Origin: Thermoguttaceae bacterium | GTDB taxonomy: Bacteria > Planctomycetota > Planctomycetia > Pirellulales > Thermoguttaceae | Reading direction: 5' to 3' | NCBI GenBank assembly: GCA_025060325.1 | Contig: JANXBW010000009.1 | Location: forward strand, 91,896-155,895 | Length of the DNA: 64,000 bases | Part shown: one piece after another, positions 48,941 through 64,000 of the stretch | Position numbering within the stretch: the stretch's first letter is position 1 | Layout: each line of letters begins with the position of its first letter | Program-made: the position numbers and the translations under genes | Notes under the pieces: generated by a model | What the model saw: only the letters and a program-made list of their open reading frames with translations | What the model was told of the DNA's origin: nothing | The model's database searches: none

Positions 48941-49570
48941 CTAATCCCTCAATTCGGGGGGGAGATCCTCTGGGAAAAGGGTGGGCAGTTGGTTTGGCGG
49001 CTCGGCTTCCGAAGCGGCTTCCCCAAAACTGTCGCCACTATCTTTGAGGCTGGCTTGCTCGTCCCCGGACGAGTCGACTTCCGCCAGCGCTCGGAAGAAG
49101 CCTGGTTGGTCAGCCGGGGCTATTTCCCGCAGGAATTCCATCTCTAAGTCGAATTCCCCTACCTCGGCGGGTATTTGGCCTGCACTGGGTGGGGGAGGAG
49201 GCGGTGAGACGGCGGCCTTTGCTCGATTCTCGGCCGCGGCCACTTCCTTTGCTTGCTGAGCGGCCTGGTGGGCCAAAACCTCAGGTGAATAATCGACCCT
49301 CAAAGTAAGGGGGCCAATTGAGAATTCCGACTGCGGCGGCAAAGGGGCTTCCACTACCCGCCGGCCCGCCACGTACACCCCATTCAGCGAACCTAAGTCG
49401 CGGATCCGGAGAACGCCGTCAGCGTAGTAAAGCTCGCAATGTCGCCGGCTGACCATAGGATGGGCGACGACCAAGCCGGCTTCGCGGCTCCTGCCGATCA
49501 TTACCGGGATCTTCACTCGCACTTGCCGTCGATCAGCCTTTCCGCCGACGACGGTTAAAATGACGTGCAT
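48941..49570 (-). CDS. FHA-domain protein
   Basis: A 209-aa protein read from the ATG at 49570; the longer frame to 49726 has no homology-like content. The FHA domain covers about residues 2-95. The phosphothreonine-binding motifs are present: IGRSREAGLVV, HPMVSRRHCEL and LGSLNGVYVAG (Arg, Ser-Arg-Arg-His and Asn-Gly all intact). FHA domains bind phosphothreonine made by Ser/Thr kinases, and this protein could read out kinases like the one at 26954. The remaining 110 residues are Pro/Ala-rich and acidic with no fold signal. It is the last gene before the phage-like module and points away from it. Confidence 0.9.
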   Translation of the reverse strand: MHVILTVVGGKADRRQVRVKIPVMIGRSREAGLVVAHPMVSRRHCELYYADGVLRIRDLGSLNGVYVAGRRVVEAPLPPQSEFSIGPLTLRVDYSPEVLAHQAAQQAKEVAAAENRAKAAVSPPPPPPSAGQIPAEVGEFDLEMEFLREIAPADQPGFFRALAEVDSSGDEQASLKDSGDSFGEAASEAEPPNQLPTLFPEDLPPELRD

Positions 49571-50376
49571 CCTCCGACCCTCGTGCCGGATCAGCGACCG
49601 ATTATGCCCGATTTTGGGGCGGCAAGGCCAAGACCCCTCTCTTCCCCGACTGCCGCCACCCTCTTGAATCGTATCTTTGGCCGTTTTTGGCCGCAAGTGA
49701 AAAGCCCCATCGAACAAGGGGGCCAAACCAAGGAATCCCCGGTATGTCCGCTCCCTTGCTTTCCCGCTGTCTTGGGGCGGTTGATGCGAAGGCTTTTTTT
49801 GTGAATTAGTTTCCTAAGCGACCCGGTTATTGGCGTGGTCACAGCCGCTATTGGAACGGCATTGGTCCGGGTGCTAGTTCCCCGTTTTAGCTCCTCCTCC
49901 CTTTAATGTGGGGCGAACTTTTACCTGCCTCCCAGCGGTAGATCTGTCACAGGTTCACGATCGACAAGTGACGAGAATATCGGTAAAAAATGGCACGACT
50001 GTTGGCAAAGATATTTCGCGGGCGCAAACGAGACATTATGCCTTTTCACAACTGCCAAAGCCTGTGCTAACGCGTCGGAACCTTAAAGTAGCCTTTTGGA
50101 AGCGTTAGTGGCTTCGGCACCTGCCTTTCATTCCTTCGGCCACTGGCGGACTGTCTCCTCTGGGGGCACAGCGTTTACCCCCGGTTGAGAAAAGATAGAT
50201 CTGCTCGGTAACGCCCCCGGCATAGGGCACGGCTTGTAGTTGAGCCGCCGCGGTATGTATTCTTTTGTACACCACCTGGCCGTCAACCTTTGGCGAGGGA
50301 TGAAAAGCCAAGAAACTGCGTGGCCTCAGCCGGCTCACAGAGCGGTCCGGAACCACCATTGTGGAGTACGCAAGCA
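49571..50376. other. gene-poor left flank of the phage-like module
   Basis: About 800 bases with no supported gene. Somewhere here lies the left end of the particle module. I looked for a tRNA, integrase site, the missing 5' end of cas2, cas1 and a direct repeat of the right junction (63050-63085) and found none. The region is slightly AT-richer around 49960-50040 (TTAAAAATGGC-like), but this is not measured. Confidence 0.4.
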
Positions 50377-51381
50377 ATGCACGAAGAAGGGGCAGTCTTG
50401 CTTCAAGAGTACTGGAGCGCTTGTGAACGACCCTTGCGCGTGGACAAACGCAATGCGGTTATTCGTGGGGTAAAGCTCCTGGGACTTCGGTCGCGAAATG
50501 GCCGGGTGTATTTGCCACAAGCACTGAGCGAGGCTTGTCCACTCTACGAAGGTGCCAAGGTCAATGTCAACCATGGTCATGTGGCCGGTTGCCCGGTGCG
50601 CGACTATCGGGACCGCATTGGCATAGTCCGCAATGTCCAATTTGTGGATGGTCAGGGGCTCTTTGCCGATCTTGTGTACAACCCAAAGCATGCCCTAGCT
50701 GAGCAGCTAGTTTACGACGCCGAGCATCTGCCGGAGAATGTTGGTCTCTCGCACAACGTGCTTGCCCGCATCCGCCAAGAGGGTGACGACACTGTGGTCG
50801 AAGCCATTCTCCACGTCTACAGCGTAGACCTTGTGGCTGACCCGGCAACAACAAGCGGTCTATTCGAAGGGGAATTGCCTTCTTTGGCTGGCGGCAGCTT
50901 TGAGAAGACCTCTCCCCACCGTCGCGGAGCCAATCAGACTCAGGTAACCGCTGCGGGGGACTGCCCATGGGTGGCTTGTTGCCGAGGTGCGTTTCGACCG
51001 GATGGTTCCAAGCGGGGTCAATGCTCAGGAGAAGCAGAGGAAGCGCTTCGGGGCTTAAGGGAAGAAGTTGATCACCTGCAGCAAAAGCTTGCCCGTGCCG
51101 AGCGGACCCTTGTTATTTGGCGAACACTTGCCGAGTTTGGTCTTCCTCTGCCGACTGGGTCCGGATCTGATCCTCAGATTGTTGACGACCATCTGCTTGA
51201 AAGGCTTTACCAACTGACTGACGAGGGGGAAGTGCGTCGCCTTATCGGTAGGCAGGCTGAATTGTGGCGCGAGCGTCAGGCCCGCATGGCCCGCGGTGGG
51301 CAAGGTGCGGCTTTTGGCGGATGTACACCCTCTGCGGATGATATCGGTTGGTTTATTCGCGCGATTTGTCCGGAGGGTTAA
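50377..51381 (+). CDS. phage prohead protease with scaffold-like C-terminus
   Basis: A 334-aa protein read from the ATG at 50377 (GGAG upstream); TTG 50290 only extends the frame. Residues 28-165 look like a phage head-maturation protease of the Mu gpI/S78-related kind: VKLLGLRSRNGRVY, a strand ending NVNHGH (His66/68), VGLSHNVLA (Ser125) and VYSVDLVADPATTSGLFEG. His and Ser in these positions are the expected catalytic residues. A polar linker leads to a coiled coil (about 228-265, LRGLREEVDHLQQKLARAER) and a helical tail, the usual place of a scaffold. Combining protease and scaffold is known in Mu-like and HK97-like phages. It is first in the particle module. Confidence 0.7.
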   Translation: MHEEGAVLLQEYWSACERPLRVDKRNAVIRGVKLLGLRSRNGRVYLPQALSEACPLYEGAKVNVNHGHVAGCPVRDYRDRIGIVRNVQFVDGQGLFADLVYNPKHALAEQLVYDAEHLPENVGLSHNVLARIRQEGDDTVVEAILHVYSVDLVADPATTSGLFEGELPSLAGGSFEKTSPHRRGANQTQVTAAGDCPWVACCRGAFRPDGSKRGQCSGEAEEALRGLREEVDHLQQKLARAERTLVIWRTLAEFGLPLPTGSGSDPQIVDDHLLERLYQLTDEGEVRRLIGRQAELWRERQARMARGGQGAAFGGCTPSADDIGWFIRAICPEG

Positions 51382-51496
51382 TGGGGCCCTTGCCAACTGC
51401 TGTGGATGTGCGTTGCTTCGAGCACAGCAAACTTTTTTCCAGTCGGTCGGTAGATTTTTTCTTCCGCACAGAAGCTGTGGAAAAAGGGGTAGGCTC

Positions 51497-51973
51497 ATGG
51501 CCAATGTCATGCGATGGCGCTACGGCGAAACGGCATCGGTCGTTGCGGCGGTCGATCGAGACACCATCATCTACCTTGGGGACTTGCTATGGCTTGACGG
51601 CAACCGTGCTAAGCCAGCTTCGGCGCTTAGTCCGGGCGGCAATGCTGCCGCTACGCGGGCTAATTTCGCCGCCAAATTTTTGGGTGTGGCTATGCAGCAA
51701 AGTCCGGCAGGGGATGATCGGCCTATTCGCGTAGCAACAAGCGGTGTTTTCGAAATGGACACCCCGGCGAGCACCTTCGAGCTGGGCGGGTGGGTTGGCG
51801 TGGCAATCGATAGCGCAACTGGCCGACCGAAAAATCAACAGGTCGAAAAAGTAACCGAAGCCACTCAGGCAATTGGTCGGATAGCCGCCCGGAGCGAGCG
51901 GACCACCACCAAAGTGCTCGTGGCGATTTGTTCCACTGTGATGGCCGGAGGGGTAGCCGGCACAACCACGTAG
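51497..51973 (+). CDS. capsid decoration/cement-like protein
   Basis: A 158-aa protein starting at the ATG 51497 with AGGGGTAGG upstream. Between the protease and the major capsid protein is the normal place for a decoration (cement) protein. Composition agrees: Ala/Gly/Thr-rich beta protein with IRVATSGVFEMDT and FELGGWVGVAID, similar to DUF2190-type capsid cement proteins. The longer upstream frame crosses the protease gene and is not real. Assignment rests on context and a modest sequence feel. Confidence 0.6.
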   Translation: MANVMRWRYGETASVVAAVDRDTIIYLGDLLWLDGNRAKPASALSPGGNAAATRANFAAKFLGVAMQQSPAGDDRPIRVATSGVFEMDTPASTFELGGWVGVAIDSATGRPKNQQVEKVTEATQAIGRIAARSERTTTKVLVAICSTVMAGGVAGTTT

Positions 51974-52085
51974 GGCCAAGGCACAAACGATCGCAGTTTA
52001 TAACATCCGGACAGCCAGGTTGCAGGAGTGGGTTTTATCAACAAGAGGTAACAGGTCTTATCCCAAGAAGTAGAGGGGCAAAAAC

Positions 52086-53246
52086 GTGGCAACGATTTGC
52101 TATCGCGAACTTCGCCGTCGTTTTGAACTAGACGGGGCGCAGGCCACCGTCCGGCACCTGCGGGAAGCCCTCCGCGCTGGCCATCTTCGCCCAGAGGATT
52201 TTAGCCTTCGGGAGCTGGCCGAGGCTTTAATCCCCGACGGCCGGCAGTGGGTTGGTCACCTTGATCCCCGTGCCCCCGTGGCGGTGGCGGAAAGCGCCGA
52301 AGGTGTGGACGTCACGGCTTTCCTTCAGGTGACCGGGCAAATTATTTACACAAAGATCTTAGAGGCTTATCAGAGCGAGGCGTTTGTCCTTTCGCGCTTG
52401 GTGCCGACGATTCCCACTCGGCTTGATGGCGAGCGGATACCGGGCGTTGGCCGGCTGGGGGATGTGGCCTCACCCATTCATCCGGGTATGCCCTATCCGC
52501 ATGTGGGATTGACCGAAGAGTATGTGGAAACACCCTCCACCACCAAGCATGGGCTGATTATTCCCATTACCCGCGAAGCCATCTTCTTTGACCGAACCGG
52601 TCTTATTCTGCGGCGAGCAGCCGAGGTCGGCCAGATCCTTGCCCTCTCCAAGGAAAAACGCCTCATTGACACGGTGATCGGAGCTGTCAACAGCTATCGC
52701 TGGAATGGACGAAGTTACCAGACCTATTATGCCGCAAGTGACGGCGGTCCTTGGGTCAACGCCTTGGCCGGCAACGCGCTTGTCGACTGGACAAGTGTCG
52801 ACAAAGCAGAGGCCCTTTTTGCCGACATGCTCGATCCCTCTACTGGCGAACCAATTGTCGTGGAAGCAACCACCGTCTTGGTGACGCCGGCTTATCGACA
52901 AGCGGCCCGGCGGATTTTTTACGGTCAGGAGCTTTCCGTCCAGACGCCGGCGGGGCTAATTCAGACCGGTAACATCCTCCGTTCCTATCGTGTGTATGAA
53001 AGCCGACTGCTTTATCGGCGGATTATTGCTTCCGGCATACCGGCTGAACAAGCCCGCACATGGTGGTTCATCGGCGACTTTAGCAAGGCCTTTGCGTACA
53101 TGGAAAATTGGCCTATTACCGTAACCCAGTCGCCCCCGGGAAGCGAAGCCGAGTTCACTCAGGACATTGTTGTGCGCTTTAAGGCAAGTGAACGCGGCAC
53201 GCCGGCCGTCTTAGATCCGCGGTATGTCGTCCGCTGCACCGGATAG
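52086..53246 (+). CDS. HK97/Mu-type major capsid protein
   Basis: A 386-aa protein starting with GTG at 52086 (AGAGGGGC upstream). The first 70 residues are helical and charged, like the delta domain removed by a prohead protease. The core reads as a HK97-fold major head protein: VAESAEGVDVTAFLQVTGQI, EYVETPSTTKHGLIIPITREAIFFD (the E-loop and spine region), TVLVTPAYRQAARRI, and a late strand DIVVRFKASERGTPAVLDPR. The element RFKASERGTPAV is typical of the C-terminal strand of these capsids. It follows the decoration gene by 112 bp. Calling it capsid is well supported by neighbours; the exact subfamily is not. Confidence 0.8.
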   Translation: MATICYRELRRRFELDGAQATVRHLREALRAGHLRPEDFSLRELAEALIPDGRQWVGHLDPRAPVAVAESAEGVDVTAFLQVTGQIIYTKILEAYQSEAFVLSRLVPTIPTRLDGERIPGVGRLGDVASPIHPGMPYPHVGLTEEYVETPSTTKHGLIIPITREAIFFDRTGLILRRAAEVGQILALSKEKRLIDTVIGAVNSYRWNGRSYQTYYAASDGGPWVNALAGNALVDWTSVDKAEALFADMLDPSTGEPIVVEATTVLVTPAYRQAARRIFYGQELSVQTPAGLIQTGNILRSYRVYESRLLYRRIIASGIPAEQARTWWFIGDFSKAFAYMENWPITVTQSPPGSEAEFTQDIVVRFKASERGTPAVLDPRYVVRCTG

Positions 53247-53503
53247 TTTGGCAAAGGCGTTGACAGACCCCTGTTGTCTATCGGGGGCACCAGTTGCCGG
53301 CACTTACCGCGAGAAATAACGTGGAGGCTATTTCCCGGGCCGAAACAAGCATCTAGCCTGGTGGGTACTCAGGGTGCGTGATAACCGTCCGGCGCTTTAT
53401 GCGTCGCTTGCTAAGGGGTAAGTCGTGTCGCGATCCTTGGGTGGGGCAGGGGCTGGGAGCGGGTCATTCCTTGACAACTTGTTGATTAAAGAGGGCAGGT
53501 TTC

Positions 53504-53989
53504 ATGTGGCTTATCGATTTTCCTCCACAAGGGATGCAAGCTTCCGGGACAAATGCGGCGTTGGTCAACGTGCGAGAAGGCTGGCCAGTGGTTGTCTTTC
53601 CTGCCTCGGAAGGGCTGCGGGCTGACTGGGCGGCTGTGTTGCCGTCGGCTTATCGGGGCGAAGGACTCCGCGTGTTGCTTCTTGCCGTCTTTGCCGGGGA
53701 TAGCGACCCGCGGCATCAGGCGGCCTTCGAGCTTGTGCTGGATCGACTTGCGCTCCCGGGCGGCAGTCTCGGGCAGCCGGCCTCCTCGCCGCCCCAAGTG
53801 GCTTTCCTTGCTGTGCCGGCCCAGGAAGGGGTTTTGTCCACAGCGGAGGCTTCCTTTCCCGCCGGGGAGGCAAGTGCCCGCCTTGCCGCCGGGGAACTAT
53901 TTCGCCTAAGGCTTCGCCTTGTCCCGGAGCTTAGCCAGTTTGCCGGTCAGTGCCAAGTCCTCCGCGTGCTGGTTCGCCCGGCAAGCTAG
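53504..53989 (+). CDS. small structural protein of the particle module
   Basis: A 161-aa protein with AGAGGGCAGG before the ATG. It is predicted to be mostly beta, with Ala/Leu/Val/Pro-rich composition (WPVVVFPASEGLRADW, GLRVLLLAVFAGDSDP, LFRLRLRLVPELSQF). No membrane segment or signal is seen. I do not recognise the family. Position after the capsid gene suggests a head completion, head-tail or decoration protein; no more can be said. Confidence 0.5.
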   Translation: MWLIDFPPQGMQASGTNAALVNVREGWPVVVFPASEGLRADWAAVLPSAYRGEGLRVLLLAVFAGDSDPRHQAAFELVLDRLALPGGSLGQPASSPPQVAFLAVPAQEGVLSTAEASFPAGEASARLAAGELFRLRLRLVPELSQFAGQCQVLRVLVRPAS

Positions 53990-54056
53990 AAGAGAACCGT
54001 CGCCCATCAAGTTGTTGATCAGCAAAGCGATCGCCCGCTCGGTTTGTCTTTGGACG

Positions 54057-54863
54057 ATGGCGCGAACATTCTCCGCTTCCAAAGGTTCCTATTGTCAACT
54101 TGTAGGGGAACTTCCGGCGGTCGGGCCGCCTTTTTGGGTAAGCTTGTGGATTTATCCGACCGCCACCGATCAAGAAGAATGCGTGCTGTTTTTGGGGAGT
54201 GCCCGGTCCACTACCTCCTTTTTTGCCCTCTTGGTAGATGCCACTAGGCGAGTGGCCGCCACAACGGTAGGCCCGTGGCATGGTCGGGCAGAAGCCAAGG
54301 TCGGCATACCGCTCACGGTAGGTCGCTGGCAGCCGGTGGTGGCACAATGGCCCGCTACTTTCCGCCGCGAGGTGTGGACCAATTCGGCCTCAAGCTTTAA
54401 CACAAAGACTGTCTCTGTCCCATTTGTCGACACGCTGGCGGTGGGTCGGCTTTCCTCCGCTTTGCCTGGGGCATGTTTCTCCGGTGCGGTGGCCCACTTT
54501 GCCCTGGGAGTGGGAAGCCTCAGCCACTCCCAAATTGCCGCCCTTTTGGCCGGGGTAGATGCCCGACTTGTGGTAAGCTGGCCGAAGCTTAAGGCCTCCT
54601 GGCCCTTTTTGTCAACGGATCGTGACCTGCTGGGAGGAAGGCAGCTTACCGCGTACGCGGATCCCGGCTGGGCGGCAGGACCGGCCCTCATCGGGCCAGG
54701 ATCGCCCCACCTGGCCATGGGCCCCGAGCCGGAACCTTCCTTACCGACCGGCCTTGTGGAAGCTGGTACTCTCTGGCCAGTTAGCGCCCCGGCGGCTCAA
54801 GCGGCGGTAAGTGGCCCAGTTTGTGGACAAATCGTTACCTCGCACCACCTGCGGGGAAAGTAG
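54057..54863 (+). CDS. LamG/concanavalin-like protein
   Basis: A 268-aa protein. The ATG at 54057 fits the start of a LamG fold (FSASKGSYCQLVGELPAVG, then PFWVSLWIYPTATD); the frame extends upstream into the previous gene and that part is not supported. The domain continues with FFALLVDATRRVAATTVG and ARLVVSW. LamG domains bind carbohydrates or proteins; in a phage particle they typically sit on tail fibres or surface decorations for host adhesion. The C-terminal 60 residues are Pro/Ala/Gly-rich. No secretion signal is present, consistent with assembly into a particle rather than export. Confidence 0.6.
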   Translation: MARTFSASKGSYCQLVGELPAVGPPFWVSLWIYPTATDQEECVLFLGSARSTTSFFALLVDATRRVAATTVGPWHGRAEAKVGIPLTVGRWQPVVAQWPATFRREVWTNSASSFNTKTVSVPFVDTLAVGRLSSALPGACFSGAVAHFALGVGSLSHSQIAALLAGVDARLVVSWPKLKASWPFLSTDRDLLGGRQLTAYADPGWAAGPALIGPGSPHLAMGPEPEPSLPTGLVEAGTLWPVSAPAAQAAVSGPVCGQIVTSHHLRGK

Positions 54864-54951
54864 CGGGGCTCTAAACGCAAAAAGGCCTTAGGCTTGCCCC
54901 GCCACTCCGAAGGGACGGGCGAACCGACGATGGATGGCAGGGAGGGCTTTT

Positions 54952-55365
54952 GTGAGCGATCTTCCCCACACCCAGGCGAGGGACATTTACGGCACGGTTT
55001 TTCGCGGCGGAAGTGCCATCCTCCTTGCCCGCGTGGTGGGCGAGGATGGTCGAGTGCTTCGGCCGGAGGATATCTCAAACGCAAGCTACAGCGTTTACGA
55101 ACTGGACGCTCATGATCCGGATGTCCGCCGGCCGGTAACCGGCCACGTTGACCGGCCACTTACGGTAGGCGAAGTCCTTTCCCCCCATTTGCGGCGGGAT
55201 TTTCCCTGGGACGTGGACGAAGTAGGTTATAACTTTCGCCACGTGCTTGAGACTGTAAGCACCCCGTGTTTTCCCCATGCAGGGAGGCACTACTTGGTGG
55301 AAGTTCGCTTCAACCCGGTCCGAGGCCAACCGATTTTGGTGCGATTTCGCCTATGGTCTATTTAG
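54952..55365 (+). CDS. small structural protein of the particle module
   Basis: A 137-aa protein. The GTG at 54952 has GGGAGGG just upstream and starts GTGAGCGAT, the same start style as the gene at 55866; ATG 54934 is the alternative. Content is beta-rich with DIYGTVFRGGSAILLARVV, NASYSVYEL and YLVEVRFNPVRGQPILVRF. The pattern resembles small Ig-like or tail-completion proteins. No family is recognised. It is one of a string of co-directional short genes between LamG and the terminase. Confidence 0.5.
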   Translation: MSDLPHTQARDIYGTVFRGGSAILLARVVGEDGRVLRPEDISNASYSVYELDAHDPDVRRPVTGHVDRPLTVGEVLSPHLRRDFPWDVDEVGYNFRHVLETVSTPCFPHAGRHYLVEVRFNPVRGQPILVRFRLWSI

Positions 55366-55534
55366 CGGCGGAAAGGTTTCTTCCCCTGGAAGCTTGGGCA
55401 TGCCTGGCCGGAGTGGGCGCGGGACAAACGGGCTTCTCAAGCTGACAAGTTGGGCAAGCGTCCGCCACGCGGCTTGGGCAGGCACCCCCGTGCCGCTAGG
55501 TTAAGCAGGTCAAGTTTACTTGAGGGCTTAATTT

Positions 55535-55747
55535 ATGGACGATTGTATACAACTTCGTCGTATTCGCAGTCAAGTGCTCAAACTTTTAGAAGAGGTGACG
55601 GCACAACCAAAACCCACTTACGAGCTTGACGGTCAACAAGTCGACTGGACGGAGTATCTTCGCGAGCTGCGCCGCCTCCTTGATTGGTGTGACCGCAAGC
55701 TTGCAGCACTGGAAAACACCGAGCTTGCCAGCCAGGCGTATACGTAA
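55535..55747 (+). CDS. small helical protein (70 aa)
   Basis: A 70-aa helical protein; ATG with GAGGGC eight bases upstream. It is a likely coiled coil (RRIRSQVLKLLEEV, LRELRRLLDWCDRKLAALE) around a short PTYELDGQQVDW turn. Small helical proteins with this kind of 'YELDGQ.V.W..YL..L' core are found near head-completion genes in related phage clusters. I do not know its function. Confidence 0.6.
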   Translation: MDDCIQLRRIRSQVLKLLEEVTAQPKPTYELDGQQVDWTEYLRELRRLLDWCDRKLAALENTELASQAYT

Positions 55748-55865
55748 ACAAGGGGGCATGCCCGATATGCCGGCCGGCTGTTTAGTTGGATGAGGTTAAC
55801 TCCTGGCCGAACTTGTGTGTGTCCAACTTGCTTGGGCAGCAGGGCATCTAAAAGGGGCAGGGTTT

Positions 55866-56510
55866 GTGAGCAGATTTCCGGGCACCGACCGCTTTTGGGA
55901 AATTGTCGACGGAGGGCAGCGCCTCCGCTACCGCTGTGTTGCCTCCGGTCAGGAAAGGACGATCGACCAGGCCCTTGTGCGACCAGCCGGCTACCGACCC
56001 GGGCAGGAAGCCGCCGGAGCCGTCAGCCACGAGGAAATCGTCTGTCATCTGCCTGCCCTTGCGGATTTAGCACCCACCCCGGGTGATCATATCTACACTC
56101 CGGATGGTCGACGCTTCACGGTGCTTTCTGCCCAGCTTGTCGCCGCTGGCACCCGCTGGCGCGTGCATGCCCGCGATCTGGTCTTAGCCCACGGGCTGGA
56201 TCGGCACGTGAGGGTGGAAATCCTCCGCTGGCAGCGAAAGCCTGACGGCACGGTCGTCGGCCGCTGGCACACCTGGAAAACGGGCCTCCGGGCGGCGGTC
56301 AGCCTTTGGCAAGCAACCACTGGTTCGCCCACAAGGCGAAGTTACGAACGTCGCTACCGCGTCATCCTCGAAGAATGTCCCCCTGTTGACCATGTGCTTC
56401 GCCTTTGTACCCCGGCCGGTCGCATCCTTCAGGTCCTTTCTGTCCACCGCGCCGATCGTGTTGACAGCTTGCCCTGGGTGGAAGCCATCGAGGCCGACCC
56501 CGACGGCTAG
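55866..56510 (+). CDS. head-completion or connector-like protein
   Basis: A 214-aa protein. The GTG at 55866 has GGGGCAGG upstream and starts GTGAGC; the frame extends further up but without a site. The first domain has VSRFPGTDRFWEIVDG, the beta strands LRYRCVASGQERTI and GDHIYTPDGRRFTVLSAQL, followed by VHARDLVLAHGLDRHV. The last third is Arg-rich, with WKTGLRAAVSLWQATTG. The segment 'GD.I..PDGR.FTV' recalls small head-tail joining proteins. The assignment is a guess from context. Confidence 0.5.
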   Translation: MSRFPGTDRFWEIVDGGQRLRYRCVASGQERTIDQALVRPAGYRPGQEAAGAVSHEEIVCHLPALADLAPTPGDHIYTPDGRRFTVLSAQLVAAGTRWRVHARDLVLAHGLDRHVRVEILRWQRKPDGTVVGRWHTWKTGLRAAVSLWQATTGSPTRRSYERRYRVILEECPPVDHVLRLCTPAGRILQVLSVHRADRVDSLPWVEAIEADPDG

Positions 56511-56579
56511 CTGCCGTCAAACCGTGCCTGGTTTTACGAGGGGCATGTCGCAGAAAACACCCGGAAAAGAGACCGCGCC

Positions 56580-56984
56580 ATGCAGGAGCTTCTAACCGCC
56601 TTTTTAACCCGTTGGCAAAGTGCCCCGGCTCTCTGTCAGCTTCTTTCGCCACAGCGTCTGACCGTCGGAACACCCTGGGGTAAACCGCCTTATGGTGTCC
56701 TTGAATGCGGAGGCCAACAGCTTTCCCTCCGCACCACTGCCGGCTACCTTTATCGGATCCTGGTACACCTTCGCTTTGTTGATGAAGATCACCATCGGCT
56801 TGCCGGCTTGGCGGAAGTGCTGCCGCGTGTTTACGACTCATGGAGGCAGCCCCTTGCCGCGGACAAATACCTCCTGGGGTTTACTGTCGAGCGGATCGAG
56901 GACCACATCCCTCACCCCGGCATGTGGCAAAAAACTTTTGGCTGTGTCGCTGTGGTCTTTGTAACTTTTGGGGATAGGACTTGA
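56580..56984 (+). CDS. minor tail/head-tail-joining-like protein
   Basis: A 134-aa protein; ATG after GAGACC. It shows TAFLTRWQSAPALCQLLSPQ and GTPWGKPPYGVLE, followed by strands TAGYLYRILVHLRFVDED and YLLGFTVERIEDHI. This order (helix, 'PYGV', strands) recalls the tail-terminator or DUF3168-type proteins of siphophages, but the likeness is only by eye. Same strand as neighbours, 69 bp after the previous gene. Confidence 0.45.
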   Translation: MQELLTAFLTRWQSAPALCQLLSPQRLTVGTPWGKPPYGVLECGGQQLSLRTTAGYLYRILVHLRFVDEDHHRLAGLAEVLPRVYDSWRQPLAADKYLLGFTVERIEDHIPHPGMWQKTFGCVAVVFVTFGDRT

Positions 56985-56997
56985 AGGACTGTTGACG

Positions 56998-57678
56998 ATG
57001 TCGCTTTCCTTGGGTGGCACGGTCTTTTGCCAGCTTTGTGCCCGTTGGGAGCAGAAAACGTCCGCTTCCGCCTTCGTGGATAGCTATAGCCTCCGGTATT
57101 ACTGGCCGATGGAGCCATCCTCGGCAGATGGCATGTGGGTTGTTGACTCCGGGCAATTGTCGGCCGGGCAATCGCAGCTATGGGAGCTTGATCTTTTGCC
57201 GCGGGAAGTGTTCGGCCGGCTTATTTACCTTTCCTTTAGCCAAATAAAACTACTGTGGATTGTCAACAAGAGGGAAAGCCAAGGCCAGCTGCACATCGCG
57301 CAAGCTCCGGAAAACGGGTGGATAGGCCCGTGGTCAAGCGGCTCGGCCCTTCTCCTCCCCCCTGGCTCGCCGCTTATCCTGGCCTATCCGGGTGCCGGTT
57401 GGCCGGTGAGGCCCCACCAGGCAGCTATCGTTCTTTCGGCAATCGGCGGTAAAGTTGTGTACGAACTTGCCCTCCTTGGCACCGTAGCGGCAGCTGGGTC
57501 TTCGCCCTCAGGCGGTAGCGCCAGTGGGAGCCAATCCCCCTCCGACCTGGAAGGGTCTTCTTCCAGCTCTGGCCAAAGTTCTTCAAGCTTTTCCGGCGGA
57601 ACTTCCGGCGGGGAGTCTTCCGCGCCTAGTTCCAGCTGGGAAAGCTCAAGCTCTGATGACGAAAGTTTTTGGTCGTAG
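56998..57678 (+). CDS. structural protein with Ser/Gly-rich tail
   Basis: A 226-aa protein from the ATG at 56998; the longer frame overlaps the previous gene. Residues 1-150 are beta-rich (SLSLGGTVFCQLCARWEQ, LIYLSFSQIKLLWIVNKRE, PGSPLILAYPGAGWPV), plausibly a tail-tube or tail-fibre type fold. From about residue 165 the sequence is a low-complexity Ser/Gly tail of about 60 residues rich in SSSS runs (for example SSSSSGQSSSSFSGG), then ending in Asp/Glu. Such tails are typical of flexible surface elements. Function not known. Confidence 0.45.
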   Translation: MSLSLGGTVFCQLCARWEQKTSASAFVDSYSLRYYWPMEPSSADGMWVVDSGQLSAGQSQLWELDLLPREVFGRLIYLSFSQIKLLWIVNKRESQGQLHIAQAPENGWIGPWSSGSALLLPPGSPLILAYPGAGWPVRPHQAAIVLSAIGGKVVYELALLGTVAAAGSSPSGGSASGSQSPSDLEGSSSSSGQSSSSFSGGTSGGESSAPSSSWESSSSDDESFWS

Positions 57679-57873
57679 TCACTTGACGTACTCGGTTGGG
57701 GGAGCTTACCCGGCGAGCAGTTAGCAAGCTCTGCCCACTTTGGGTTTGGGCCGAAGTAGCTCCCCGGCAAGCCGTGAAAGTCCGCCCCGCTTGGCCCCCC
57801 GCAGGGGCTTTCCTCAGGGGGTCGGCTCCAGCCACAGGCACCATCGCCACTTGGACATCCCGGAGGACCACCT

Positions 57874-58677
57874 GTGTTTTCGTTTACGGAATTAGTTGGT
57901 TCATCCACCGAGGAGTGGAGCTCCGACGGGCTTCGTGTGCGGCGACGGTTCCTTGTCGCTTGGCCCAAACGCCAGGAATTTGTGCACGCGCTTTGGGGAC
58001 CTCGCTCCGGGAAGGACCCGGCCTCAAGCCTCCCCGAGCCGTACCCGGTGGCCATCCGCTTTATGCCGGTAACAGACGAGCCCTCTTTATCAACAACACC
58101 TGAGGGACCATCGCCTGCCGGGCCTTTTGTCCAGGCCGAGGTGGACTACCACCTCCCCGCTACGACCGCTTTGGCCCCTGGGCGGCAGCCCCTGCCGGGG
58201 GATGTACACCTGGTCGAGCAAAAGCCGCAGCTTGTTCGCCTCTTTGTTTCCCCACAGGGGTGGCACTGGCCGGGACCGGCTCAGCTGCCCCTTCCGCCCG
58301 ATGTGCCCCTGGCCGTTGAGATTCCTGTTTGTGAGTATCTGGTGACGATTCGCCTGCCGCTGGAGCCGCCTTGGGATCTCCTGGGCGAAATGCGCGGCAA
58401 AGTAAACGGACGGACGTTCCTCGGCTTTCCGCCGGAAACTGTGCTCCTTGTGGGGCTGGAAGGCAAGCCGCTTTGGGCCGCAAGCGGGCCAACCGCCAGA
58501 CACTGGGAGCTTCGCTGCCACCTGGTGGAAAGATGTTTATGGCAAGCCGGTCAGCCTGTCGGCTGGAACCATCTTTTCCGCCCCGATACCGGTCGCTGGG
58601 AACGCCCCTTGGCCGCCGGACAAACCCTTTACGCATCGGCCGACTTTCAGCTTTTACTGGATTTAGCCGGCCTCTAG
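57874..58677 (+). CDS. particle-module protein of unknown function (267 aa)
   Basis: A 267-aa protein. The GTG at 57874 has GGAGG exactly seven bases upstream, the clearest start in the module. A Pro-rich middle (GPSPAGPFVQAEVDYHLPAT) sits between two alpha/beta stretches (SDGLRVRRRFLVAWPKRQEF; LVTIRLPLEPPWDLLGEMR). A late VNGRTFLGFPPETVLLVGLEG and WNHLFRPDTGRWERPLAAG recall tail-associated minor proteins from Gram-negative siphophages. I do not recognise a catalytic motif. Preceded by about 195 bp without a supported gene. Confidence 0.5.
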   Translation: MFSFTELVGSSTEEWSSDGLRVRRRFLVAWPKRQEFVHALWGPRSGKDPASSLPEPYPVAIRFMPVTDEPSLSTTPEGPSPAGPFVQAEVDYHLPATTALAPGRQPLPGDVHLVEQKPQLVRLFVSPQGWHWPGPAQLPLPPDVPLAVEIPVCEYLVTIRLPLEPPWDLLGEMRGKVNGRTFLGFPPETVLLVGLEGKPLWAASGPTARHWELRCHLVERCLWQAGQPVGWNHLFRPDTGRWERPLAAGQTLYASADFQLLLDLAGL

Positions 58678-58701
58678 CCTAAGGCCCCTAGGTTTGACCA
58701 A

Positions 58702-59817
58702 TTGGCAGCGTTTTTAAAAACGGAGCGCTTACTTCTTCCCGCTGTGGACGAGACAAATTGCCCACAATTTGGCCTTTATGTCTTTGGTTATCCTGCCGAG
58801 ATTGGTGGTGCCAGCACCGAGCTTTGGCACACCCTCCGCCTTTGGCGGCTGATGGGGCTAAGCGTCAGCTGTGTTGTCTCGGCACCCCCGCCGGCACGGT
58901 GGCAGGGCAAAGTAAACAAGCTTGGCGTCCGGACGCTCATTTGGCGACACAGTGTGCTCGACGAATACCCGGAAATCCGCGGCCGGACGGCCATTGCCTT
59001 TTGTCATCGGGAGTTTTTGCAACTTGCCCCGGTCCTTCGCCAGGCCGGCTGTCGGCTGCTTTGGGCCGGATGCATGAACTGGCTCTTTCCGGCCGAGCTC
59101 CGCTTCTATCGTCAACATGGTCCGATGGACGGCTATCTTTTTCAAAGTCGCTTTCAACTACGGACCCTTTTGCCGCAGCTAGCCGCTTGGGGTGTGGACC
59201 GCACCCGCTGCCACCATATCCCCGGTGCATTTTTTGTGGACGAAATGCCGTTTTGTTTTCTTCCCCGGCGACCGGACGAACCACTTGTTGTTGGTCGCCT
59301 GTGCCGGCCTGATCCGGCCAAATGGCCTCAGGAGCTGTGGACGACTCTTGCCCAGACGCGGCTTGCCCTTCGCTGTCGGCTTATGGGTTGGTCGCCGCGG
59401 ATCGCCCAGCACGTGGGCCCGCCACCTCCCTGGGCGGAGGTCTTCCCCCCAGGCGCTATACCGGCCCAGCAATTTTACGCCTCGCTTCATGTGCTTTTGG
59501 GGTGGGGAGGCTCGGCCATCGAAAACTGGCCGCGGATTGCTCTGGAGGCCATGGCCGCCGGCGTCCCTATTGTCGCCCCCGCTTCCGGCGGTTGGCCGGA
59601 GATGATCGACCACGGCCGTACCGGACTTCTCTTTCGCACAACAGCCGAGCTTGTCGACTGTCTTCGCCAACTTGTGGACGAAGAGCTTCGCCTTTACCTA
59701 GCCAGCCAGGCCCGCCGCCATGTGGAGGAAGTTCTCGCCCCCGCCCAGAAGCTCATCCCCCGCTGGCAGACCTTTCTTGGTGTCAATAACTGGCGGAGCC
59801 TTAGCGATGAAAGTTGA
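58702..59817 (+). CDS. GT4-family glycosyltransferase in the particle module
   Basis: A 371-aa GT-B glycosyltransferase. The start is a TTG at 58702 with a weak site. The acceptor domain has FGYPAEIGGASTELWHTLRL, the GG-loop typical of GT4. The donor domain has LVVGRLCRPDPAKWP and the E-x7-E motif ENWPRIALEAMAAGVPIV, followed by PASGGWPEMIDHGRTGLLF. All are those of active GT4 retaining transferases. It sits between a structural gene and terL, and its stop overlaps the terL start by 11 bases, so it is translated with the particle genes. Phage-borne glycosyltransferases modify phage or host glycans or DNA; this one is unusual in being inside the structural block. Confidence 0.85.
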   Translation: MAAFLKTERLLLPAVDETNCPQFGLYVFGYPAEIGGASTELWHTLRLWRLMGLSVSCVVSAPPPARWQGKVNKLGVRTLIWRHSVLDEYPEIRGRTAIAFCHREFLQLAPVLRQAGCRLLWAGCMNWLFPAELRFYRQHGPMDGYLFQSRFQLRTLLPQLAAWGVDRTRCHHIPGAFFVDEMPFCFLPRRPDEPLVVGRLCRPDPAKWPQELWTTLAQTRLALRCRLMGWSPRIAQHVGPPPPWAEVFPPGAIPAQQFYASLHVLLGWGGSAIENWPRIALEAMAAGVPIVAPASGGWPEMIDHGRTGLLFRTTAELVDCLRQLVDEELRLYLASQARRHVEEVLAPAQKLIPRWQTFLGVNNWRSLSDES

Positions 59818-61423
59818 TGCCCCCACTTGGCCAAGTTGGGAACCGTACCTGCGTGCCGGGACCGGCCCTGTCCTGTGGGAGAAGCTTCGCAGCGAGCTGG
59901 CCGCTGCCCATGCCGCCAAACGTCGCCGCCAGCAACCGCCGCCTCGCTGCCACGATCTCCTCGCCTGGGCCGGGCATTATCTGCCGGAAGCCTTCTCCCT
60001 GCCCCCCAGCCCCATGCACCGCTGGCTTGCTGCCCAGCTCCTGTGGCTTGTTGACCATCGCGGATCGCGGCTGAATGTCTTGGCTCCCCGCGGGAGTGCT
60101 AAGTCCACCTTGGCCACCTTCGCCTTTCCCCTGTGGCTAGCTCTCCACCAAAAGGAAAGCTACATCTGGATTGTCAGCGAAACCCGGCGCCAAGCCTGGG
60201 CCCATCTTGAACACGTCAAGCACGAGCTGACCACCAACCCCCAGCTTCTTGACGACTATCCCCAGGCTGCTGGTCGCGGCCCGGTGTGGCGGGCCGGCTT
60301 TGTCGTCCTCAAAAATGGCGTGACCCTCGAAGGGCTCGGCGTTCTTCAAGCGCTGCGGGGGAAGCGTCGGCTTGCCCATCGTCCATCGTTGATTATCTGC
60401 GACGACATCCAAAACGATCGCCACGTCCTGACTCCCGAAGGTCGCGATCGCACCCGACAATGGTTCTTCGCTACTCTCCTGCCCGCCGGGAGTCCACGCA
60501 CCAATGTGATCCATTTGGCCACCGCTCTCCACCCGGAAGCACTCGCCCTGGAGCTCCTCACCCGGCCTGGCTGGCGCTCCAAGGTCTTTCGGGCTATTCA
60601 GTCCTGGCCGCTCCGCATGGATCTTTGGCAGCAGTGGGAGAAAATCTACACAGCGCCCAACGACCCCGCTGCGGCCGCCAAGGCCCGCGCCTTTTATCTG
60701 GCCCACCAGGCGGAAATGGACGCCGGCGCCTCGGTCCTGTGGCCCCAGCGCGAGGATCTTTACTCCCTCATGTGTCAACGAGCGGAGCTAGGCCCCGCCG
60801 CCTTCGATCGCGAAAAACAAAACCGACCAGTCCTCCCCCAACTGTGCGAATGGCCCGCCGAATACTTCCACGCCGACATCTTCTTCGACACCTGGCCCGC
60901 TTCTGTCCGGTTGAAGATTCTTGCTCTGGATCCCAGCGAAGGTCTTTCCCCTCGCCGCAGCGATTACTCGGCCTATATCCTGCTGGCTGTCACCGAGGAG
61001 GGACTTTTTTACGTCCAGGCCGATCTGGCCCGCCGGCCCCTTCCCCAGATGCTTGCCGACGGCGTCCGGCTTTACCGGCAACATCTTCCCCATCTTTTTG
61101 TCATCGAAGCCAATCTCTTTCGCTCCCTGTTGGCCGATGCCTTCTACCAGGAGTTCCGCCGGCAGGGTGTCATTCCCCCAGCCCCTCTCTTGGTGAACCA
61201 CCAGATAAGTAAACACCTCCGCATCCGCCGTCTGGGACCTTATTTAGCCGCCGGGCGGATCCGCTTTCGCTCGCAGTGTCCCTCCACCAAGCTCCTTGTG
61301 GACCAGCTGCGGCAATTTCCTTTTGCCGATGCCGACGACGGGCCGGACGCCCTGGCCATGGCTGTCCGCGTGGCTGAAGACTACCTTCGCCTAGCTCCTC
61401 CGTCGTTCGTCCATCCTCCCTAG
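59807..61423 (+). CDS. terL: terminase large subunit
   Basis: A 538-aa DNA-packaging motor, read from the ATG at 59807, which overlaps the glycosyltransferase by 11 bases. ATPase: Walker A APRGSAKST (93-101), Walker B SLIICDDI with the catalytic Asp199-Asp200 pair, coupling region VIHLATALHP. Nuclease: Asp375 in ILALDPSEG, Glu434 in FVIEAN and Asp511/Asp514 in DDGPDALAMA. These form a standard RNase H-like catalytic set, so both activities look intact. No small terminase gene is visible next to it. The portal gene starts 104 bp after its stop. Confidence 0.92.
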   Translation: MKVDAPTWPSWEPYLRAGTGPVLWEKLRSELAAAHAAKRRRQQPPPRCHDLLAWAGHYLPEAFSLPPSPMHRWLAAQLLWLVDHRGSRLNVLAPRGSAKSTLATFAFPLWLALHQKESYIWIVSETRRQAWAHLEHVKHELTTNPQLLDDYPQAAGRGPVWRAGFVVLKNGVTLEGLGVLQALRGKRRLAHRPSLIICDDIQNDRHVLTPEGRDRTRQWFFATLLPAGSPRTNVIHLATALHPEALALELLTRPGWRSKVFRAIQSWPLRMDLWQQWEKIYTAPNDPAAAAKARAFYLAHQAEMDAGASVLWPQREDLYSLMCQRAELGPAAFDREKQNRPVLPQLCEWPAEYFHADIFFDTWPASVRLKILALDPSEGLSPRRSDYSAYILLAVTEEGLFYVQADLARRPLPQMLADGVRLYRQHLPHLFVIEANLFRSLLADAFYQEFRRQGVIPPAPLLVNHQISKHLRIRRLGPYLAAGRIRFRSQCPSTKLLVDQLRQFPFADADDGPDALAMAVRVAEDYLRLAPPSFVHPP

Positions 61424-61527
61424 CCCCGGCCACACGCAACTACGCTCTGCCCCGCCGGACTTCCGCCCACAAACGAGTCTCTTTCAATCATTTGGCTTTT
61501 GCTCAGGCACAAAAGGAGGAACCCCCA

Positions 61528-63054
61528 ATGACGCCACACGATGCTCCTTCCCCCGCAAAGCCCACTGGCGATGATTCCGAAAATGCTCTGGGAACACCCC
61601 CGCCTGCCCCGGAACCCGACGCCCAGCTTGCCCGCCTGTGGCAAAGTTATCGGCAGGCGATCGCTCGGATGCTCGAAACTCTCCACGATCAGTTCCCTGA
61701 TTGCGAGGATCCTTACGTCGACAGCGATGGCCAGCGCTGGCTACCGCTTGACTCGCCTGCCCCGCCAGGCTCCCAGCGCGGTCTGCCTTATCGGACCGAG
61801 GCCGAGCTTGCCCACATCCGCCTCCAATGTCGCGCGCTTGCCGTGGAAAACGAGTTTGCCATCAACGGCCACGAAAACCGCATTAGCTACATCGTTGGCA
61901 CAGGTCATGGCTACCGCGTCACGCCCAAACCCGGCCGACACGTCCCCGAGTCTCTCCTCTGGCAGATCCAGGAAATCCTCTCCCGCTTTCTCCGCCGAAA
62001 CATGTGGCACCGCCGTCAACAGGAAATCGTCCGCCGCCGCGATCGCGATGGCGAGGTCTTCCTCCGTTTCCTCCCCGATCCCGAGGGCACGCTGCTTGTC
62101 CGCTTTATCGAACCTGAACAAGTTTACACGCCAGAAGCGTATCGCCACGACCCCGCCGCTTCCTTCGGCATCCTCACTCGCCTCCATGATGTCGAATCCG
62201 TCCTCGGCTATTTCGTCGACGGGGAATTCGTCCCCGCCTCCCACATCCAGCATCGCAAGGCCAATGTGGACTTTAACGTCAAGCGTGGCCTGCCCCTGTT
62301 TTATCCGGTCCGCAAGAATCTCCGCCGCGCCGAAAAGCTCCTTCGCAACATGTGTGCCGTGGCCGAAATCCAGTCTGCCATCGCCCTCATTCGTCGTCAC
62401 ACCCACTTAGCTTGGCCAGCGGTCGAGGACTTCCTCAAACGCCAGCCCCAGTCCACCCAATGCCCTTACCCTGGTCCGGCCAACCTCCTGCGGCGTTTTG
62501 CCCCCGGGACCATCTTGGATGTCTACGCCGGAACTGAATACGAGTTCCCCGCCGCCGGCATCGACGCCGCCCGCTTTGTCGCCATCCTCCAGGCCGAGCT
62601 CCGCGCCATCGCCTCGCGGCTGGTGATGCCGGAATTCATGCTCACAAGCGACGCTTCCAACGCCAACTACGCCTCCACCATGGTCGCCGAAGGACCGGCC
62701 GTCAAAATGTTCCAGCGGCTCCAGCAGGAGCTTATCGAAGAAGATCTCCACGTGATGTGGCGCGTCCTGGAGACCGCCGCCTCCTTGGGCCAAATCCCCT
62801 CCCCGGTCCTGCGGGACATCGATGTTCAGGCTATCCCGCCTTCCCTGGCTGTCCGCGACCGCCTCAAAGAAGCCCAGGCCGATTGGATCCTCGTCCGCGC
62901 TGGCGCCATGTCCCCGCAAACGATGGCCATGCGGCACGGCCTGGATCCGGACCGGGAGCGTCAACTCCGCACCGCTGCCTCGGAGGCTCCCTGGCCGCCC
63001 AGCCCCCAGCCGCCGACTCACGCCGTTGAGCAAACCAACGGGCGGGCCAACTGA
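61528..63054 (+). CDS. phage portal protein
   Basis: A 508-aa portal, the dodecameric DNA gate at the capsid vertex. AAAGGAGGA lies before the ATG at 61528. Family features: the stretch ALAVENEFAINGHENRISYI, a long wing helix LLWQIQEILSRFLRRNMW, the crown/stem region with FRDREVF-like RRDRDGEVFLRF, and RFIEPEQVYTPEAYRH. The C-terminal clip and tunnel part includes LVMPEFMLTSDASNANYAST, a common portal motif, and a helix QRLQQELIEEDLHVMW. It ends with a Pro-rich tail at 63054. It is the last gene of the module; two bases after its stop the open frame that leads into cas2 is already running. Confidence 0.9.
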   Translation: MTPHDAPSPAKPTGDDSENALGTPPPAPEPDAQLARLWQSYRQAIARMLETLHDQFPDCEDPYVDSDGQRWLPLDSPAPPGSQRGLPYRTEAELAHIRLQCRALAVENEFAINGHENRISYIVGTGHGYRVTPKPGRHVPESLLWQIQEILSRFLRRNMWHRRQQEIVRRRDRDGEVFLRFLPDPEGTLLVRFIEPEQVYTPEAYRHDPAASFGILTRLHDVESVLGYFVDGEFVPASHIQHRKANVDFNVKRGLPLFYPVRKNLRRAEKLLRNMCAVAEIQSAIALIRRHTHLAWPAVEDFLKRQPQSTQCPYPGPANLLRRFAPGTILDVYAGTEYEFPAAGIDAARFVAILQAELRAIASRLVMPEFMLTSDASNANYASTMVAEGPAVKMFQRLQQELIEEDLHVMWRVLETAASLGQIPSPVLRDIDVQAIPPSLAVRDRLKEAQADWILVRAGAMSPQTMAMRHGLDPDRERQLRTAASEAPWPPSPQPPTHAVEQTNGRAN

Positions 63055-63077
63055 TTGGCCGCCAACACGCCACCCCG

Positions 63078-63335
63078 GGCGACGATCGGCGGCGGGAGCG
63101 GGTAGCCCGGGTGCTGGATGATTTTGGTGTGCGGGTGCAGGAGTCGGTGTTTGAGCTGTGGCTAAGGGAGGAGGACTGGGAGGTGCTGGAGGCAAGGCTT
63201 GCGCCGCTTTTGGCCGAGGGGGTGGGGGAGGTGCGGTTTTATCCCTTGTGTCGCTCGTGTCGGCAGAAGGTGCGGAGGATGGGCACGCAAGAGGGGGCCC
63301 CTGCTTTCGAAAGGCCATCGGTGATTATTCTTTAA
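63078..63335 (+). pseudogene. cas2: cas2 lacking its N-terminal strand and catalytic Asp
   Basis: From 63078 the frame matches Cas2 well: GDDRRRERVARVLDDFGVRV, QESVFELWL and the 'VRFYPLCRSC' C-terminal strand with RPSVIIL at the end. Cas2 normally begins 'M..VVVYDI.DDRRR', and the Asp of YDI is the metal-binding catalytic residue. Here the residues before GDDRRR are HATP (from RQHATP), not YDI, and no suitable ATG lies upstream. The usual first nine residues are therefore missing, replaced by sequence that directly follows the portal stop. GTG 63111 would only shorten it further. A CRISPR leader and array lie downstream, so this is the genuine cas2 of the locus, now 5'-truncated. No cas1 is in the window. 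Confidence 0.8.
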
Positions 63336-63759
63336 AGGCCTGGTGTGGGCCGGGGGTGGGCGGGAAGTGGGGCAGGAGTGTGCTGTGGGGGCGAGGCCCG
63401 GGGGGTTGACAACGGGGGGAAATGGATTAAACTGATCGCAAGTTTGTGAGCCGTCTTTGACAATTTGGTTGGCTAAGGGAAGCTGAGGGGGCAGCCAGTG
63501 GGAAAGGTCAGTATTGGGATTAAGGAGCTGTTACAATACCCCGATATAGGGGGCTTTAAACCCCTTTGGCGAAGGATAAAAATGGGTGGAAAAGGGGGGA
63601 CCTTTTCCGGAAGATGTAAGTTGAGGTGTGGTATGGGTTTGTGGCGGAATTTTACCCAGTTTAACGTGCCATTTGTGGACGAAGTCCATCCCCCAACTGG
63701 GGGGTCCGGAAGTTTTGGCTTTGTAAGTTGTGATTTTTCAAGGACTTACGAGGCCGGCT
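63336..63759 (+). promoter_or_regulatory. CRISPR leader
   Basis: 424 bases between cas2 and the first repeat, with no supported gene, as expected of a leader. A sigma70-like promoter is possible: TTGACA at 63406-63411 and TAAACT at 63428-63433, a 16-base spacer. A palindrome-like GGGGGCTTTAAACCCC lies at 63549-63564. The orientation (leader left, array right) agrees with the repeat 3' end, GGATCGAGAC, being next to the spacers. A 113-codon frame overlapping it (63498-63839) runs into the repeats and is not a gene. Confidence 0.6.
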
Positions 63760-64000
63760 CTCCGATTCACTGCCCTGACGAAAAAGGGATCGAGACCCGA
63801 AGGTCGTCTGGGTCAGGAGAGAGCCCCAAAAAGCGGTAGCTCCGATTCACTGCCCTGACGAAAAAGGGATCGAGACTGCCATCCATGGTGTATACGGCCC
63901 TCGTCGGGGTCAACCCATTCTCCGATTCACTGCCCTGACGAAAAAGGGATCGAGACGGGTGCCCAATACAAGCGCCCATAGCCCGGCCGTGCTCGCTCCG
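63760..64000 (+). CRISPR. CRISPR array, 37-bp repeat, three repeats in window
   Basis: Repeats at 63760-63796, 63840-63876 and 63920-63956 are identical over 37 bases (beginning CTCCGATTCACTGCCC, ending GGGATCGAGAC). Two spacers, both 43 bases, lie at 63797-63839 and 63877-63919; a third starts at 63957 and the array runs off the window. Identical repeats point to an active or recently active array. The repeat's 3' end and the 37-base length resemble repeats of type I or III systems, but without effector genes the type is open. By eye no spacer matches the phage-like module here. Confidence 0.95.

Follow-up and report, generated by a model that had tools for sequence, protein, structure and literature searches.

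The window, a stretch of 64,000 nt comprising bases 91896-155895 of contig C89 (155,895 bp) in a planctomycete draft genome of 4.78 Mb and 89 contigs, carries a phage-like head and packaging module on the plus strand (50290..63054). The module begins at 50290 with a plus-strand gene that is guessed from its place to be protease-like and matches only phrog_29592 (unknown function). It continues on the same strand with genes assigned through PHROGs and Pfam to a capsid protein (52086), a glycosyltransferase (58702) and TerL (59720), includes several ORFs of unknown role, and ends with the portal gene (61492..63054, plus strand), an intact ORF of 520 aa whose matches in the same databases are to portal families. 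Its left neighbour, on the minus strand (48941..49726), is a gene that we take from its sequence to be FHA-like. To the right, and again on the plus strand, follow a linker, a truncated cas2 frame (63057-63335), a leader and a CRISPR array. The leader contains a promoter-like site (63406..63433, plus strand; TTGACA-16-TAAACT), a match to the consensus only, which was found once against 0.3 expected in shuffled sequences, and a core (63549..63692, plus strand). The array comprises three 37-nt repeats on the plus strand (63760-63796, 63840-63876 and 63920-63956), the contig ending 44 nt past the third. Behind the cas2 fragment, leader and array run unbroken up to this contig end, and the leader would drive the array.

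The cas2 frame covers Cas2 from residue 12 to its end. It matches positions 11-74 of the 74 positions of the Pfam Cas2 profile (PF09827; 54.8 bits, cut-off 23.8, E 1.1e-14), while the TIGR01573 match begins at position 14 of 96. The remainder of the Cas2 domain is thus present, and the N-terminal beta strand with its conserved Asp (YDI) is absent: residues 1-11 are replaced, and the frame carries GRQHATP-G where MESWVATYDIS is expected in the alignment with P0003, an intact relative from another source, and with the cas2 start on contig C36 described below. The Asp on this strand is the catalytic one, and the first in-frame ATG, GTG or TTG is the GTG at 63111, so that the fragment is predicted from its sequence not to work as Cas2. 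The earlier note had placed a cas2 frame without YDI strand and Asp right behind the portal stop (63054), and the profile match from position 11 bears this out. Directly upstream, where cas1 might be sought, lies the portal gene, and GC skew also changes sharply between the portal side and the cas side.

A Cas2 search of the window genome returned three places: the window itself, C36:26586-26681 and C23:730-942. C36 (26,681 bp) terminates inside cas2, and its end holds csm1, a cold-shock/Csm2-like gene, csm3, csm4, cas1 and then the first 36 codons of cas2, MESWVATYDISDDRRRERVARVLDDFGVRVQESVFE. From D12 to E36, where C36 stops, its Cas2 is identical to the window frame. At the level of bases, identity starts at 63079 (break at 63078|63079), within one base of position 63078, from which the earlier note had seen the Cas2 match, and leaves a linker of 24 nt (63055..63078, plus strand) between the portal stop and the first common base. 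Besides the window's own protein, P0003 was the sole match to the frame at E 1e-8 (70% identity over 84% of the frame), and its N-terminus, METWVATYDISDD, is of the C36 type. Because this one relative begins like C36, we take C36 to hold the normal cas2 start and the N-terminus in the window to be the abnormal one. From the 77 nt that C36 shares with the window, we infer that C36 would continue into a whole cas2. Neither cas1 nor the cas2 start is lost from the genome, since C36 carries cas1 and an intact cas2 start (residues 1-36).

The genes preceding cas2 on C36 were compared with NCBIfam profiles for a type III-A locus. Cas10/Csm1 (TIGR02578, 466.6 bits), Csm3 (TIGR02582, 189.9 bits) and Csm4 (TIGR01903, 103.6 bits) all exceeded their cut-offs, and Cas1 scored above the general cas1 cut-off. 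The Cas6 match fell below its cut-off, as did the Csm2 match (17.8 bits, cut-off 24.8), and none of the six C36 proteins scanned matched Csm5 above cut-off. The protein at the Csm2 position (L012:3096-3752 on C36) fuses a cold-shock domain (E 9.4e-15) to the weakly Csm2-like part of 17.8 bits; no paper combining "cold shock domain" with "csm2" was found in the open-licence literature searched. The third place, C23:730-942 (L016), is a second, different cas2-like frame (69 bits) that a TGA interrupts; the 6 kb read there contained no direct repeats of at least 20 nt.

The stretch at which C36 meets the window, 63079..63155 on the plus strand, equals the last 77 nt of C36 (cas2 nt 32-108). An overlap of this length recurs elsewhere: the end of C21 shares 77 nt with window 63616-63692, the reversed end of C14 shares 77 nt with window 63578-63654, and C51 and C9 have exactly 77 nt in common between the end of the former and the start of the latter. 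Among 61 contig ends tested, which leave aside 22 contigs below 3 kb that read N, nine share at least 25 nt with another tested sequence (five 77 nt, two forming one pair 58 nt, one 50 nt and one 26 nt). We take 77 nt to be the k-mer length used by a de Bruijn assembler; the lengths of 58, 50 and 26 nt are unexplained by it. The order of the 89 contig sizes fits an alphabetical sorting of size-numbered names, presumably SPAdes-style. Since overlaps of exactly this length of 77 nt are also seen at further contig ends, we read 63079-63155 as a fork in a short-read assembly graph, at which both cas1-cas2 (C36) and the portal enter one and the same cas2-tail, leader and array. An edge leading from portal to cas2 in a k-mer graph should need k-mers that span the junction, which favours a real join. 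PMC10853769 describes SPAdes contigs as walks through the assembly graph.

The repeat was found on seven contigs, at or near an end in each (C89, C6, C9, C26, C31, C39 and C52; 21 copies at up to 3 mismatches). We read the latter six as array tails, because the 600-800 nt examined beyond each array contain no more repeats; the array stretch of C9 consists of a single repeat. The sequences that enter the leader from upstream are C36 (through the fork), C21, C14, C27 and the portal. Six tails thus face five upstream sequences with the portal and four without it, an unbalanced count either way. At least four leaders (63549-63692 and those at the ends of C21, C14 and C27) have a nearly identical core, shared whole or in part, and differing upstream sequences, and by eye most combine a TTGACA-like element with a variant of the CTTTGACAAT motif. 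Near the junction, Rfam gave matches to one CRISPR repeat family only, below the gathering score. Comparison of 23 spacers, some of them cut by contig ends, with the module in the window gave a longest match of 13 nt, and the best non-self match of the spacers to contigs of the same genome, the module and the loci of relatives had an E of 0.014.

The module itself is widespread. A portal match was found in 100 of the 147 genomes searched (own included), including all three members of the genus seen; it was single in 86 and absent from 47, and in the 14 genomes with two or three matches some of these are pieces of one gene. In a portal tree of 30 rows, chosen as best-scoring loci and not by random draw, all six genera with at least two rows were monophyletic with starred support; deeper branches were mostly weak, and a pair from another family sits among the rows of the window's family. 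The capsid matched in 90 of the 297 genomes of the class, once each in 84 of these. Identity is about 56-72% for the majority of matching genomes within the order, falls to 29-41% for family f16 and G106, and lies at about 30-49% for genomes beyond the order; matches near 30% may represent ordinary phage capsids.

Gene order was compared in 20 fetched portal loci from 18 relatives. Ten relatives have the portal followed by the protease-like gene on the same strand, so that the module in the window is permuted circularly against most relatives showing both halves. Seven showed no protease-like or capsid match in the stretch fetched, and in one of them (G095) the capsid gene lies about 62 kb from the portal. 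The genus-mate G001 has the order of the window, protease-like gene to portal, with an FHA-like left neighbour 63% identical to that in the window; as it shares this order, the opening of the module between portal and protease-like gene predates the split of the window genome (G000) and G001. The portal's spread, the six monophyletic genera and this shared permuted module beside the FHA gene together argue for an old resident, and the module does not look like a recent invader. Where a recent prophage insertion should be patchy and leave an empty site in close relatives, we found a widespread portal, and a left flank and gene order that are the same in G001.

The right edge differs. In G001 the module ends just past the portal, with about 230 bp followed by parB, parA, a DUF1015-like gene and sahH (names by eye) and no cas2 there, and no cas2-tail was found near the portal in any of the 20 loci. 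In the window genome the parB block is found on C27, where its neighbours are different genes. C27 itself opens with yet another leader, and its parB flank showed no similarity to the portal-parB spacer of G001. None of the queried genes from C27, C36, G001 or the window followed parB in the stretches fetched from genus-mate G002 and from G026. As C27:1-9843 and G001:C2 illustrate, the portal-parB adjacency is missing in the window genome, and arrays may mark points of rearrangement. Neighbouring genes at the right edge of the module thus vary from species to species, however the cas2 question is decided.

On balance, we consider it probable, by a modest degree, that 63057-63335 is a headless second copy, which arose when the end of the type III-A locus that comprises cas2-tail, leader and array was duplicated onto the module's right edge. 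In this event, the unit would have been copied beside the resident capsid-gene cluster, and the copy at the cluster's right edge would have kept cas2 without its first 11 codons. The portal-cas2 join would accordingly exist in cells, either as a second copy per genome or in part of the population. Several features favour such a copy. The break misses the portal ORF by 24 nt, which is expected of a tolerated event but not necessarily of a random false join, and the portal side holds no repeat that could mislead an assembler. That the edge is a natural boundary is suggested by G001, in which the module also stops about 230 bp before the next gene. A fifth leader at the portal fits better with six tails than do the four other upstream sequences (C36, C21, C14 and C27) by themselves, a weak argument given that the 22 contigs below 3 kb read N. 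Finally, array duplication has been described as a way in which one cas locus comes to have several arrays (PMC12814883).

The main alternative, to which we assign an appreciable but somewhat lesser probability, is an assembly join: the genome would hold a single cas2-leader unit of this kind, behind cas1 on C36, into which the portal end was wrongly routed. C36 stops exactly where it merges with the window contig, with the same 77-nt overlap as at other ends, several near-identical leaders collapse here, and runs of N occur inside contigs (99 N in C61 and 9 N in the C14 stretch). All bases to the right of 63079 could be the C36 locus alone, because the rest of cas2 and the upstream part of the leader occur once in the readable assembly and show no base differing from a single cas2 locus; a true copy would have to match base for base across the collapsed part. 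Also weighing against a second copy are the absence of a cas2-tail beside the portal in the relatives' loci, the inequality of tails and leaders even when the portal is counted, the four of nine end overlaps that are not 77 nt, and the 22 contigs reading N, which may hide additional leaders or a different sequence following the portal. Against a join, however, speak the position of the break 24 nt past an intact stop codon and the uniqueness of the portal side: with up to 3 mismatches allowed, the 24-nt pattern 63056-63079 occurs nowhere else in the readable genome (the 22 contigs below 3 kb reading N), so the usual repeat-driven misjoin offers no explanation. The exact portal-cas2 junction gave 0 matches among viral contigs. 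We therefore regard a real headless copy as somewhat likelier than an assembly join, and the earlier note's pair of options, a rearrangement or an assembly join instead of a clean insertion, was the correct one.

Its further suggestion, that a phage-like element inserted in or next to cas2, cut the gene and disabled CRISPR adaptation, is very improbable. A headless cas2 does abut phage-type genes, but most of the genomes searched contain the portal, mainly as a single match, and it groups by genus; in G001 this permuted module and its left flank occur with no cas2; C36, whose last 77 nt are also found in the window, carries cas1 and the cas2 start intact; and none of the 23 spacers matches the module over more than 13 nt. 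Portal spread, gene order in relatives, the G001 locus and the genus-wise tree led us to reject a prophage insertion. Still less probable is a natural Cas2 variant lacking the first strand: although the frame is open from an ATT codon that overlaps the portal stop and the protein database lists it as a 93-aa protein, it has no standard start codon upstream of GTG 63111, its identity from D12 to E36 with a normally starting C36 refutes a native lack of the YDI strand, provided that C36 is related, and in a comparison of P0003 with ten solved structures both alignments viewed include a tyd/ydi strand (two of the other eight matches begin only at P0003 residue 9 or 14).

As cas1 and the missing start are intact on C36, we see in the fragment a likely spare partial copy, or possibly an assembly join, rather than an immune system broken by a phage. 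Neither a second copy nor a join gives evidence of lost adaptation, or of working adaptation. Cas1-Cas2 from the main locus would serve the window array in trans, and spacer gain and use in trans are plausible because cas1 and the cas2 start of C36 lie in the same genome. Put together, a fuller account, which we hold tentatively and somewhat short of probable, is that a III-A leader-array unit with a headless cas2 was copied onto the edge of an ancient, GTA-like planctomycete capsid cluster, giving an extra array fed in trans by the main-locus Cas1-Cas2, with the fragment as a scar of array spread. If the join is real, it would be a molecular scar of array multiplication, in which a leader end was copied and took a piece of cas2 along; if the join is false, it illustrates how near-identical leaders at contig ends can yield false calls of disabled CRISPR in draft genomes. 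In both cases a knock-out of adaptation by a phage-like element drops out as a claim, and attention is drawn to capsid genes that Pirellulales seem to keep by descent.

Three known systems invite comparison. The C36 locus resembles type III-A (Csm) loci in its Csm1, Csm3, Csm4 and Cas1, and differs in having no Csm5 among the six proteins scanned, a protein at the Csm2 position that begins with a cold-shock domain, and a Cas6 match below cut-off. The module is a candidate domesticated or gene-transfer-agent-like element: like the head clusters of gene transfer agents (GTAs) and domesticated prophages, it combines head and packaging genes that mostly give one match per genome (86 of 100 for the portal, 84 of 90 for the capsid), with the portal grouping by genus (6 of 6) on a tree with weak deep branches. 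Unlike them, it is known from its genes only, and it is not contiguous in every relative. In the open-licence literature, represented mostly by listings and the beginnings of abstracts, we saw no planctomycete gene transfer agent described; PMC12213060, PMC13055281 and PMC9208149 use the term only within a cited title, in connection with an alphaproteobacterial MAG and as a general comment, respectively. Closest to the preferred reading are duplicated or distant arrays served by one cas locus. According to PMC12814883, duplication is one origin of multiple arrays per cas locus, and arrays with identical repeats gain spacers at similar frequencies whatever their distance from that locus. The genome studied here likewise has several arrays, alike in repeat and with related leaders, away from the contig of the cas operon; it differs in that the putative copy would bring along a 3' piece of cas2.
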